Below, one piece after another: positions 4,470 through 9,398 of a stretch of DNA of 64,000 bases (the stretch's first letter is position 1; every line of letters starts with the position of its first letter). The notes below the pieces were generated by a model. The model was not told the origin of the DNA and did no database searches. It saw only the letters and a program-made list of their open reading frames with translations. Both the position numbers and the translations under genes were made by a program. This stretch comes from Rhizobium leguminosarum bv. trifolii WSM2297 (GTDB taxonomy: Bacteria; Pseudomonadota; Alphaproteobacteria; Rhizobiales; Rhizobiaceae), in assembly GCF_000271845.1 (NCBI RefSeq), contig NZ_JH719395.1, positions 656,025 to 720,024 of the forward strand, read 5' to 3'.

Positions 4470-5903
4470 TCAGGCGTTTTCGGTGAGCGTTGAATTCTGC
4501 CCAAGCCAGACGGCGCAGTCTGCAAGCGCACGGCGCGCGATCAACTGCCGCTTCATGATCGTCTTGTCCTTGCCGCGGAAGCGCTTGACGCCCTCGGGCT
4601 TGACGATCGAACCCGGCTGAAGCTCCGGAAACAGACCGAAATTGATGTTCATCGGCTGGAAGGAGCGTTTGCCCGGCTCTTCGTCGGTGACGATGTGCCC
4701 ACCGGTGATATGAGCGAGCAGCGAGCCGAGCGCCGTCGTCGCCGGCGGCAGGCAGATCGCCTCGCCCTTGCGTTCGGCGGCGGCGAAACGGCCGGCCATC
4801 AGCCCGACGCTGGCGCTTTCGACATAACCCTCGCAGCCGGTGATCTGGCCTGCGAAACGCAGGCCGGGCCGCGATTTCAGCGTCAGCGACGGGTTAAGCA
4901 GGGTGGGGGAGTTGATGTAAGTGTTGCGGTGCAGACCGCCGAGACGGGCAAATTCGGCATTTTCCAGACCCGGGATCATCCGGAAGATTTCCGCCTGCGC
5001 ACCATATTTCAGCTTCGTCTGGAAGCCGACCATATTATAGAGCGTGCCGAGCGCATTATCCTGGCGCAGCTGCACGACGGCATAGGCCTTGACCGTCGGA
5101 TTATGCGCGTTCGTCAGCCCCATCGGCTTCATTGGTCCGTGGCGCAGCGTCTCGCGGCCGCGTTCGGCCATCACCTCGATCGGCAGGCAGCCGTCGAAAT
5201 AGGGTGTGCCTTCCCATTCCTTGAAACCGACCGTGTCGCCTGAAATCAGCGTGTCGACGAAGGCATTGTACTGCGCTTCATCCATCGGGCAATTGATGTA
5301 ATCCTTGCCGGTGCCGTCGGGACCGACCTTGTCGTAGCGCGACTGATACCAGCAGATATCCATGTCGATGCTCTCGCGGTAGACGATCGGCGCGATGGCG
5401 TCGAAGAAGGCAAGCGAATCCTCGCCCGTCTCCGCCTGGATGGCGCTGGCAAGCGACGGCGCCGTCAGCGGTCCAGTGGCGACGATCGCCAGATCCCAGT
5501 CTCTCGGCGGCAGGCCGGTGACCTCTTCCCGCACCACCGTGATCAGCGGGTGGTCGTGGATCGCCCGGGTCACCGCCTCGGAGAAGCCATCGCGATCGAC
5601 GGCGAGTGCGCCGCCGGCCGGCACCTGGTGGCGATCGGCAGTGGCCATGATCAGCGAGCCGGCCATGCGCATCTCGGCATGGATGACGCCGACGGCATTG
5701 CTGGTTGCATCATCGGATCGGAAGGAATTGGAGCAGACCAGTTCGGCAAGACCATCGGTCTTGTGCGCATCGGTACCGCGCACCCCGCGCATTTCATGCA
5801 GGATAACGGGAACGCCGGAATTGGCGATCTGCCAGGCGGCTTCCGAGCCGGCAAGCCCGCCGCCGACGACATGGATGGGGGAATAGGAAGAGATCGTGTT
5901 CAT
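4470..5903 (-). CDS. trmFO: Methylenetetrahydrofolate-tRNA-(uracil-5-)-methyltransferase TrmFO
   Basis: TrmFO makes ribothymidine at position 54 of tRNAs using methylenetetrahydrofolate and FAD. The 477-residue length is normal. The N-terminal [11 protein letters not shown] is the FAD-binding glycine motif. The family signature follows: HEMRG near residue 37 and [12 protein letters not shown] near residue 55, which includes a conserved cysteine. [12 protein letters not shown] motif lies in the C-terminal third. It starts with ATG and is a single-gene unit, convergent with the gene ending at 4404. Confidence 0.96.
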
Positions 5904-5954
5904 TCCGGGCTGATATCATGTCGGCAGGTGCGATCCAACACCTCGGAATCAAAA

Positions 5955-5974
5955 ACGGCGCCCGAGGGCGCCGT
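5955..5974 (-). terminator. Rho-independent terminator of the first DUF1127 gene
   Basis: A GC stem of eight pairs (acggcgcc / ggcgccgt) with a four-base loop lies 36 bases after the stop of the DUF1127 gene at 6011. Read on the minus strand it is followed by TTTTT. Confidence 0.8.
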
Positions 5975-6010
5975 CTTGGAAGCATCGCGCCCGCTATTAG
6001 CGGCCCGCTA

Positions 6011-6154
6011 TCAGCGGAATGAGCGGGATGCGATATTGCGGATGTCGTAGCGGCTGACGCCGATATCGGACAGGGTCTGGTTCGAAAGGCCGCCCAGTTC
6101 GTTGAGCGTACGGCGGTAGCTGAGCCAGCTTCTTGCAATGCGGATCGGGTTCAT
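6011..6154 (-). CDS. DUF1127 small protein 1
   Basis: A 47-residue basic protein with the DUF1127 (YjiS-like) pattern: SWLSYRRTLNELGGLSNQTL followed by SDIGVSRYDI. Family members in alphaproteobacteria are small arginine-rich proteins; some bind RNA and affect small-RNA processing and phosphate or carbon metabolism. The start is set by GAGGAAA seven bases before ATG, which excludes a longer reading frame reaching 6376. It has its own terminator and a plausible minus-strand TATATA box at 6218-6223. A second DUF1127 gene lies about 300 bases upstream on the same strand. Confidence 0.88.
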   Translation of the reverse strand: MNPIRIARSWLSYRRTLNELGGLSNQTLSDIGVSRYDIRNIASRSFR

Positions 6155-6242: not shown

Positions 6243-6251
6243 TGCAGTGCA
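6243..6251 (-). promoter_or_regulatory. TGCACTGCA motif upstream of DUF1127 gene 1
   Basis: A nine-base near-palindrome lies about 20 bases upstream of the TATATA box of the DUF1127 gene, overlapping the expected -35 region. The same motif with matching A/T-rich flank occurs upstream of the small RNA at 7247-7255, which suggests a shared promoter element or regulator site. Confidence 0.4.
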
Positions 6252-6379
6252 AATAAAAGGCGTCTGCTATGCAATTGTGCAATGTAATGCTTGCCAATTA
6301 GGCGGTGGATATTTTTTGAGCGGGTTACGAAAGCAGGCAAAGCCGTGCAACCGCCGCGGCAGTGCCCCGGCAACAAAGA

Positions 6380-6411
6380 AAACGCCCGCTGTGGGTACAG
6401 CGGGCGTTTCG
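6380..6411 (-). terminator. Rho-independent terminator of the second DUF1127 gene
   Basis: The inverted repeat cgcccgctgt / acagcgggcg with a short loop is followed on the minus strand by TTTTCTTTGTT. It is 44 bases after the stop of the gene at 6455. Confidence 0.85.
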
Positions 6412-6454
6412 ATCGAAGACGAGTTGCTTGGGAGGAAGCAGCGATCGCCTTGAA

Positions 6455-6601
6455 TTAGCGGGAGGAAGCCTCACGGGCAACGCGATGGATGTCCGAACGA
6501 TCGATGCCGAGGTCGTGCAATTCGCGGTTGCTCATGCGGCCGAGTTCGGTAACGGTCTGACGGTACTTGCGCCAGTTATTGAAAGAGCGAGAGAAGTTCA
6601 T
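6455..6601 (-). CDS. DUF1127 small protein 2
   Basis: A 48-residue protein with the DUF1127 pattern: SFNNWRKYRQTVTELGRMS then ELHDLGIDRSDI. The start is ATG with AAGGGG upstream. It shares the core of the DUF1127 protein at 6011 but the two are only about half identical, so they are old paralogues and not a recent copy. The gene lies between its terminator at 6380 and the small RNA ending at 7026. DUF1127 genes are linked to anti-Shine-Dalgarno small RNAs in other alphaproteobacteria, so this neighbourhood is informative. Confidence 0.88.
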   Translation of the reverse strand: MNFSRSFNNWRKYRQTVTELGRMSNRELHDLGIDRSDIHRVAREASSR

Positions 6602-7025
6602 GTTAAGCCCCTTTCCGAGGGTTTGATCTGCCAGCAGCCACTAATCGGCGCTGACCTCTATTTGATGACCGGAATATATGTTGCGGCGCGAAAGAGGAAA
6701 ACAGCCAAGTTTTCAAATCACCTATGCGGCGTATGCAATACTCAACGCGTTTTTGATCAAGTCTTGCCGCTTTTTGGTCAACGAATAGGCAGAATGATCC
6801 TGAGGAAAGCAATCTGGTTTGGCGCGCCGAACGGGTGCCCGTGCTCCAAAACGCTGGTCCTTCGGCGGTTCCGACATGCGTTCACCGGTAAAGAGCCGTT
6901 TCGCTTCGGTTCGAAAGCCGCCCATTTATCCGCAGCCTTAGGTGGGGCGGTTTGGCGGCAGTTTGGAACGGCGGGGCCGAGCGTCCGAAATTCTGAGGGC
7001 ACTCATGTTTTAATTGCGTTTTGCA
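6602..7025. other. Intergenic region, no convincing gene
   Basis: About 420 bases between the second DUF1127 gene and the small-RNA terminator. The minus-strand frame at 6722-6925 is open for 67 codons but has no ribosome site, mixed codon use and no recognisable motif, so I do not call it. The promoter of the DUF1127 gene at 6455 must lie here. Confidence 0.6.
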
Positions 7026-7218
7026 GAATAAAACGCCCGCCGGGGGAGGATCCGGCGGGCGCATTATGATGACTGGCAACTGGGAGGAGGAGTGTTGCCA
7101 GTCTTATCGCAGCGCGCTTGGGAGGAGGAGTGCGCGGCTGCGAATCTCGTCACGGACAATCAATCCGCGGGCATCCGGCAGAGCCGGGCCGGGGCGCCAT
7201 CCCCGTGCTTCGATGAAT
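7026..7218 (-). ncRNA. Cuckoo/CcsR-type small RNA with anti-Shine-Dalgarno loops
   Basis: On the minus strand there are three consecutive hairpins. The first (7141-7109) has a nine-pair GC stem with one bulge. The second (7103-7071) is a perfect ten-pair stem. Both present the same loop, ACTCCTCCTCCCA. The third (7061-7034) is a ten-pair GC stem with loop ATCCTCCC followed by TTTTATT, a Rho-independent terminator. Loops carrying CCUCCUCCC are the hallmark of the cuckoo RNA/CcsR families of alphaproteobacteria, which are stress-linked and often lie beside DUF1127 genes, as here. The 3' end is set by the terminator. The 5' end is estimated from a TACTAT box at 7225-7230 and is uncertain by tens of bases. 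Confidence 0.8.
7034..7061 (-). terminator. Terminator hairpin of the small RNA
   Basis: Perfect ten-pair stem cgcccgccgg / ccggcgggcg, loop ATCCTCCC on the minus strand, followed by TTTTATTCTG. It is unusual in also carrying a TCCTCCC loop. Confidence 0.85.
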
Positions 7219-7246
7219 CTGTAAATAGTATGACTAATTGATTTTT

Positions 7247-7255
7247 TGCAGTGCA
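7247..7255 (-). promoter_or_regulatory. TGCACTGCA motif upstream of the small RNA
   Basis: Same nine-base motif as at 6243-6251, followed on the minus strand by an A-run and a TACTAT box 16 bases downstream. It is probably part of the small-RNA promoter. Confidence 0.4.
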
Positions 7256-7471
7256 ATAAATACATGATGGATATGCGCCTTGTGCATACCTCTCCGAACA
7301 TACACTTATATTAGCGCCTATGACGTTAGCAGCCGGTTAATGCTCGCCCCAACTTAGACCAATGAGGAATTTGTATATTTGTCACGAGGACGTTTGCGAA
7401 GCTCAATGCTGCGGCTATAACGACGGAAGCTGCGGCGCCGGACTGAGCGCCGCGGAATAAGGGGTGGGAGC

Positions 7472-9313: not shown

Positions 9314-9398
<85 letters not shown>

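Follow-up and report, generated by a model that had tools for sequence, protein, structure and literature searches.

The minus strand of a 64-kb stretch of DNA from Rhizobium leguminosarum bv. trifolii WSM2297 (the window; positions below are window coordinates) carries an RNA of the alpha-r14 family, the rhizobial branch of the 'cuckoo' RNAs. We take it to be a trans-acting small RNA of about 189 nucleotides (nt), the counterpart of SmelC398 of Sinorhizobium meliloti at the nfeR1 locus, and give this reading a probability of roughly 0.9. An earlier annotation made from the letters alone (the sequence-only reading) had proposed a cuckoo/CcsR RNA here and suggested a covariance search as a check. 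That search, run on the whole window, bore the proposal out with a full-length match to the Rfam model RF02344 (alpha-r14; model positions 1-123 of 123) at 7148-7028, scoring 114.8 bits against a cut-off of 58.8 (E 1.6e-20), and this was the only alpha-r14 match above the cut-off in the window. The CcsR1 model RF02791, which covers the first two hairpins, also matched, at 40.4 bits and below its cut-off of 65.3, and no match to RF02345 (AbcR1/2, alpha-r15) was listed at the locus.

The RNA body folds into three hairpins, the last being a GC-rich intrinsic terminator followed by TTTTAT (Table 1). As the sequence-only reading had it, one 13-base loop, ACTCCTCCTCCCA, is repeated on the minus strand; its two copies begin at 7131 and 7093, and the 64 kb hold no other. 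The longest direct repeat in 7026-7218 measures 14 nt, whereas 1,000 dinucleotide shuffles averaged 7.3 and never exceeded 12. Folding of 7148-7028 gave a minimum free energy of -62.6 kcal/mol (z -9.66; 0/200 shuffles equally stable) and placed all three anti-Shine-Dalgarno (anti-SD) words in hairpin loops, with CCUCCUCCC in loops 1 and 2; the terminator loop is the shortest and has only UCCUCCC (TCCTCCC at 7050). With the full motif on two hairpins, a shortened one on the third, and stems that vary among paralogues, the RNA follows the cuckoo plan of two to four adjacent hairpins that share a loop motif on variable stems (a definition drawn in part from section 21 of PMC3927594). An anti-SD loop on the terminator, earlier thought unusual, is the norm for alpha-r14: the RF02344 consensus has three such loops with the third on the terminator; the motif is described as unpaired in all loops of alpha-r14 RNAs (PMC7143759), and NfeR1 has three redundant anti-SD motifs, aSDa-c (PMC10746234).

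To follow the RNA in relatives, we collected loci by a search with the neighbouring DUF2157 protein, which yielded 37 (36 under the title Rhizobium, one under Rhizobiales bacterium) and, with the window, a set of 38 loci containing 35 distinct alpha-r14 sequences. Judged by the best aligned piece of the locus stretch only, the nearest to the window were R. hidalgonense FH14 (93.3% over 8,114 nt) and R. redzepovicii 18T (92.0% over 6,670 nt). The RNA sits at the same place in 37/37 relatives, standard pairs fill 94.3% of the pair cells, and the core stem of the terminator is kept in 99.7% of cells. The claim of like loops on differing stems is borne out, for the stems differ and covary: in 29 pair cells both partners had changed, where shuffles averaged 10.1 (0/500 as high). 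The number of further pair types was unremarkable (108/500 shuffles as high). The loops are conserved in relatives as well, with CCTCC present in loop 1 and in loop 2 of all 38 sequences and orthologue identities (loop versus stem) of 0.927 versus 0.905 for hairpin 1 and 0.980 versus 0.940 for hairpin 2. Across 49 distinct copies including paralogues, loops were 0.98-1.00 and stems 0.69-0.81 identical, a comparison biased toward loops by the prior removal of copies with fewer than four CCTCC words. At three loci (L060, L061 and L063; alignment A1), loop 1 is altered to TATCCTCCC, hairpin 2 still has TCCTCCTCCC, and the anti-SD word of the terminator is lost.

That these repeats are palindromic DNA or a small protein-coding gene, rather than RNA, is barely credible: the inverted repeats are GC-rich and a short frame begins at an ATG within the 5' part, but the covariation across paired sides and the RF02344 family score argue for RNA, and the start codon is changed to GTG or TTT in some aligned sequences. 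We rejected the ATG as the start of a small gene, as it is not kept in all sequences and the frame runs on elsewhere.

RF02344 matched in 37/37 sampled same-genus genomes (3 to 13 matches per genome), in 10/24 genomes from other families of the order, with weaker matches, and in 0/14 control genomes; 38 of all 61 genomes had a match over the cut-off. Genome G001 has 13 matches, nine of them above the cut-off, and six alpha-r14 copies are reported for S. meliloti (PMC7143759).

The RNA is of a known kind, and its locus, too, has long been known, as the nfeR1 region of S. meliloti. The gene order of the window is tig, tRNA, GDYXXLXY and DUF2157 proteins, the alpha-r14 RNA, two DUF1127 genes and trmFO/GidA; that of S. 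meliloti Ak57 is tig, tRNA, two alpha-r14 copies, two DUF1127 genes and trmFO. Sinorhizobium sp. K101 likewise has two alpha-r14 copies ahead of a DUF1127-like frame, and in Shinella sp. PSBB067 two copies lie 1 kb apart, with an apparent small transposase gene between them (L133, about 5210-6040; judged from its letters). No second copy was found at the window locus. In Ak57, 30,998 nt separate the AbcR2 end from copy 2 and 30,720 nt separate it from copy 1; because the former distance fits the 31,004 between AbcR2 and NfeR1 in Rm1021 coordinates (PMC7143759), we equate copy 2 with NfeR1. The LsrB motif described for NfeR1, TGCA-N6-GCAT (PMC10746234), is likewise found at copy 2. Copy 1 fits sm7'/SmelC398, where sm7' is a 214-nt prediction whose detection was then pending (PMC2573895) and SmelC398 is a 217-nt entry (1667766-1667982) of a deep-sequencing survey (PMC2873474), the one paper listed for that name in the literature searched (supplements excluded).

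We take the window RNA to be the counterpart of SmelC398 because its promoter aligns with that of copy 1 and the gene order is shared: tig, tRNA, two DUF1127 genes and trmFO are found in both, the promoter layout is aligned, and the window and copy 1 have CGCATA-N5-CATG-N5-ATTGCACTGCA and a CTAT -10 in common. Like SmelC398/sm7', the window RNA lies between tig and two DUF1127 genes and combines the promoter words with a long 5' part and three anti-SD hairpins; it differs in length (about 189 versus 217 nt) and in that SmelC398 stands in tandem with NfeR1, whereas NfeR1 is absent from the window locus. With NfeR1 (also Smr14C2 or SmelC397), the founder of alpha-r14, it shares the locus, three anti-SD hairpins including the terminator, and a LysR-type box equally far from the start. 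By contrast, NfeR1 is 123 nt long without a 5' module and is the other tandem copy, and the window RNA has a shortened third loop and no NtrC word that we could find.

By comparison with the S. meliloti homologue, the transcript would start at about 7216 and run to 7028, close to the 5' end of 7218 set by the sequence-only reading. The sigma-70 promoter predicted ahead of this start aligns with CTGCAC-N17-CTATAT at the S. meliloti locus. We consider it improbable that the window RNA is instead NfeR1 itself in its 123-nt form, with a start near 7148 and nothing but promoter DNA in the conserved stretch before it. The RF02344 match does begin at 7148, the locus is that of NfeR1, and the 5' stretch of the window is not unusually stable on its own (z -1.04), but the conserved promoter words lie about 70 nt further up and align with copy 1, not copy 2, the window has a single alpha-r14 above the cut-off, the 5' stretch shows pair-keeping changes, and class-B copies have, by eye, a -10-like word right before the model start.

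On the reading of a SmelC398 counterpart, the RNA opens with a conserved 5' module that has no anti-SD loop. A covariance model of this module, R1, matched 7223-7141 with 97.3 bits, the window being among its building sequences. R1 found the module once each in 103/120 genomes of the genus at E <= 1e-5 (none in 17), and across the family it matched 10/151 genomes at E <= 0.01, three of the same genus, ahead of loops, and seven of other genera. We took the latter seven as chance, as they have no TCCTCC loop series alongside and single words near two. On the homologous stretch R1 matched weakly in K101 (16.8 bits) and in the SmelC398 5' part of Ak57 (13.3 bits, E 0.21), which sets SmelC398 apart from the window RNA. 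Pairs in the module were counted on the window's own fold in 20 hand-chosen of 43 distinct sequences, with the most divergent (L057, L058, L060, L063) left out: 87.5% of cells were standard pairs, against 84.5 on average in shuffles, and both partners had changed in 10 cells, where shuffles averaged 3.8 (1/500 as high). Slid versions of the pairing dropped to 31-47%, a test in which a structure taken from one member favours itself. The module fold is weakened by its outer helix, which pairs in only 76.7% of cells, and by the ordinary stability of the stretch noted above. The conservation of the module is thus firm and its first hairpin well supported, and the other two hairpins rest on less.

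The role of the module is probably in stability or processing, or in contact with a protein or another RNA. That a long transcript is cut so that only the three-hairpin part of about 121 nt acts, the module being a spacer, strikes us as less likely than not, and against it stand the pair-keeping changes within the module and the listing of SmelC398 at 217 nt (PMC2873474). By eye, the copies in the genus fall into three kinds, with this module, without it, or with a fourth anti-SD hairpin in its stead. The fourth hairpin, ATCGAAGC..CACCTCCTCCC.. (by eye), starts 7/7 copies examined around base 1500 of loci L100, L107, L112, L114, L116, L118 and L120, which are seven of the 10 alpha-r14 copies that follow a DUF1127 gene (see below); SmelA099 of S. 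meliloti, with four hairpins, resembles them.

With regard to regulation, ATGC-N7-GCAT, a LysR-type box, precedes the RNA at 35/38 loci, and at 38/38 when its last T is not counted; the LsrB site of NfeR1 lies at -72 to -57 (PMC10746234), which makes LsrB a candidate regulator of the window RNA by similarity of the box. A second word, GCAT-N3-TG-N3-T, was found ahead of DUF1127 gene 1 at 38/38 loci and before the RNA at 0/38, on either strand, and was dropped there as a candidate. We presume VtlR to be the counterpart of LsrB. The GCAT-N3-TG-N3-T consensus is that of B. abortus and A. tumefaciens (PMC8844928), and in Brucella both AbcR2 and three DUF1127 proteins are under positive control by VtlR (PMC12595884). 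Ahead of DUF1127 gene 2, TGCACAATTGCAT is present in 37/38 loci and TTGCACTGCA in 36/38.

By analogy with NfeR1, the RNA most likely silences mRNAs by covering their ribosome-binding sites. LsrB, a LysR-type regulator, would activate the sigma-70 promoter from the ATGC-N7-GCAT box, the unpaired CUCCUCCUCCC loops would bind target mRNAs by base pairing at ribosome-binding sites of the GGAGG type, and this pairing would block the initiation of translation; the loops may be largely interchangeable, as in the example of NfeR1, which silences ntrB through redundantly acting anti-SD motifs and no longer does so when all three are mutated (PMC10746234). Taking ntrB to be the long frame just before ntrC, with a start codon of our choice, we found presumed leaders of GGGAGGCGGC-ATG in 5/5 Rhizobium genomes examined and GGGAGGAGATTGCGGC-ATG in S. 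meliloti, with predicted loop pairing of -16.6 and -17.8 kcal/mol, respectively; the modelled pairing is possible, which is not proof that it occurs.

Several observations weigh against the reading of a three-loop, LsrB-controlled SmelC398 counterpart. The sequence-only reading was right that TCCTCCC is present in the terminator loop, but this is not the full CCUCCUCCC, CCTCC is kept there at 35/38 loci (missing at L060, L061 and L063), and among orthologues the loop is less conserved than its own stem (0.943 versus 0.980). The strict LsrB word, TGCA-N5/6-GCAT, precedes the RNA at only 11/38 loci, and TGC-N11-GCA, the NtrC word, at 0/38, on which count an NtrC site as in NfeR1 was dropped. RNAalifold, given all 38 aligned sequences of the 5' module, returned the module's first hairpin but a different pairing where the other two would lie. 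Pairing with ribosome-binding sites is generic, so that no choice of target follows from it, and one of the six S. meliloti copies alone was reliably detected on Northern blots (PMC7143759).

Two DUF1127 genes (PF06568) lie downstream on the same strand, as had been stated, the first starting 427 nt past the RNA in a CIN1-type arrangement; the association of DUF1127 with cuckoo RNAs has been published as the 'CIN1 locus' (PMC10253847). In eight complete genomes of the genus, 18/50 above-cut-off alpha-r14 copies lie within 500 nt of a DUF1127 match, 18/18 on the same strand. Each genome has one copy ahead of the gene, as in the window (eight in all), and the remaining 10 come after it, 214-270 nt away, counts in which orthologous loci recur and the copies are not independent.

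The 3' untranslated region (3'UTR) of DUF1127 gene 1 contains a one-loop look-alike, a hairpin that is new to us and is, with the folded 5' module, the less familiar part of the locus. Its TCCTCCCA is unchanged in 38/38 rows of alignment A3, and a hairpin enclosing CCUCC formed in 31/32 distinct sequences, identical elements being counted once, versus 10.1 expected from flank shuffles. We used single-sequence folds for this count because RNAalifold left the hairpin unpaired on the 3'UTR alignment, which we attribute to varying stem lengths. A sub-threshold RF02344 match spans the region (cut-off 58.8; E 3.5e-4 with 1,421 bases searched). At a further 49 loci of the genus, some of which may come from the same genomes as the 37 relatives, alpha-r14 loops lie upstream in 49/49, CCTCC is in the 3'UTR of 38/49 and the hairpin in 33/49; among the 20 of these chosen for diversity, 11/20 have CCTCC and 9/20 another hairpin (by eye). 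The nine without the anti-SD word are L172, L174, L178, L179, L180, L185, L187, L188 and L190, where the replacement is often GGCTTCGC..GCGA..GCC. Because CCTCC is missing in 11/49 loci, in S. meliloti and in K101, the hairpin is a feature of part of the genus only; the 3'UTR stretch examined of DUF1127 gene 2 has no CCTCC.

Tentatively, this hairpin could be an alpha-r14 copy, either decayed or reduced to a minimum, that works in the manner of Rhodobacter CcsR as an anti-SD RNA derived from a 3'UTR, as suggested by its invariant loop and by sub-threshold RF02344 matches at this place in the window and in 4/8 complete genus genomes. Against it speak the single loop, the losses just described (nine of the 11 among the 20 diversity-chosen loci; S. 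meliloti and K101) and the fact that the MmgR model (RF00519) also touches the stretch weakly. More speculative still, and in our view unlikely, is a single regulatory unit in which one LysR-type regulator governs both a long alpha-r14 whose 5' module has a second function, such as binding the neighbouring DUF1127 protein, and the one-loop anti-SD element in the 3'UTR of the DUF1127 mRNA. A link between the RNA and DUF1127 is made testable by the LysR-type box before both and by the anti-SD hairpins beside and in the DUF1127 mRNA. In S. meliloti, NfeR1 ties together nitrogen status, the LsrB regulator and nodulation; the window reveals which member of the tandem pair Rhizobium has retained at the locus, and adds to it a conserved 5' module, which accounts of the family as three hairpins omit.

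Among other small RNAs, CcsR1-4 of the Rhodobacter CIN1 locus resemble the window RNA in their CCUCCUCCC loops and DUF1127 neighbour. In Rhodobacter the DUF1127 gene comes first and the RNAs follow on the same transcript, made from an RpoHI/RpoHII promoter (PMC10253847), whereas the window RNA precedes the gene and would have its own sigma-70-like promoter. AbcR1/2 (alpha-r15) and MmgR (alpha-r8) share anti-SD seeds with it as rhizobial small RNAs (PMC7143759); the RF00519 match, 21.1 bits and sub-threshold, lies over the DUF1127 3'UTR only.

Table 1. Features of the alpha-r14 locus in window coordinates.
Feature	Position	Strand	Basis or remark
alpha-r14 (cuckoo) RNA body, three hairpins, last = terminator	7028..7148	-	RF02344 match
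Hairpin 1	7107..7143	-	loop ACTCCTCCTCCCAA at 7131-7118; fold and covariation
Hairpin 2	7071..7103	-	loop ACTCCTCCTCCCA at 7093-7081; fold and covariation
Terminator hairpin	7028..7067	-	loop AUCCUCCC at 7051-7044; fold
Conserved 5' module without anti-SD loop, ~68 nt, three small hairpins (window fold)	7149..7216	-	alignments A2 and A4; pair counts; model R1
Predicted sigma-70 promoter, CTGCAA (7251-7246), 17 nt, CTATTT (7228-7223)	7223..7251	-	by eye
LysR-type box ATGC-N7-GCAT	7273..7287	-	at -71 to -57, counted from a start at about 7216
LsrB/VtlR-like sites before DUF1127 gene 1, TGCA-N6-GCAT (6737-6724) and GCAT-N3-TG-N3-T (6727-6715)	6715..6737	-	
DUF1127 gene 1, 48 amino acids	6455..6601	-	PF06568, 60.2 bits
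Sub-threshold alpha-r14 match: end of DUF1127 gene 1, hairpin and terminator	6377..6478	-	RF02344, 33.7 bits
Hairpin TGCTT-CCTCCC-AAGCA, 3'UTR of DUF1127 gene 1	6425..6440	-	conserved in A3
Promoter words before DUF1127 gene 2, TGCACAATTGCAT (6281-6269) and TTGCACTGCA (6252-6243)	6243..6281	-	conserved
DUF1127 gene 2, 47 amino acids	6011..6154	-	PF06568, 49.6 bits
tRNA	9314-9395		between tig and the RNA
tig	9577-11061		gene near the RNA locus

The terms sought were absent from the main text of small-RNA studies in R. etli and Agrobacterium (PMC2881028, PMC3738593). Several of the records that supplied comparison loci, CP090106.1 (L132, L135), NZ_CP104131.1 (L134) and NZ_CP069303.1 (L133), are 3.5-4.6 Mb long and bear a plasmid label; CP090106.1 ('pSymB'), the one annotated in the stretches examined, holds tig, trmFO, secDF and a LysR/ArsR pair around AbcR1/2, and looks chromosomal.
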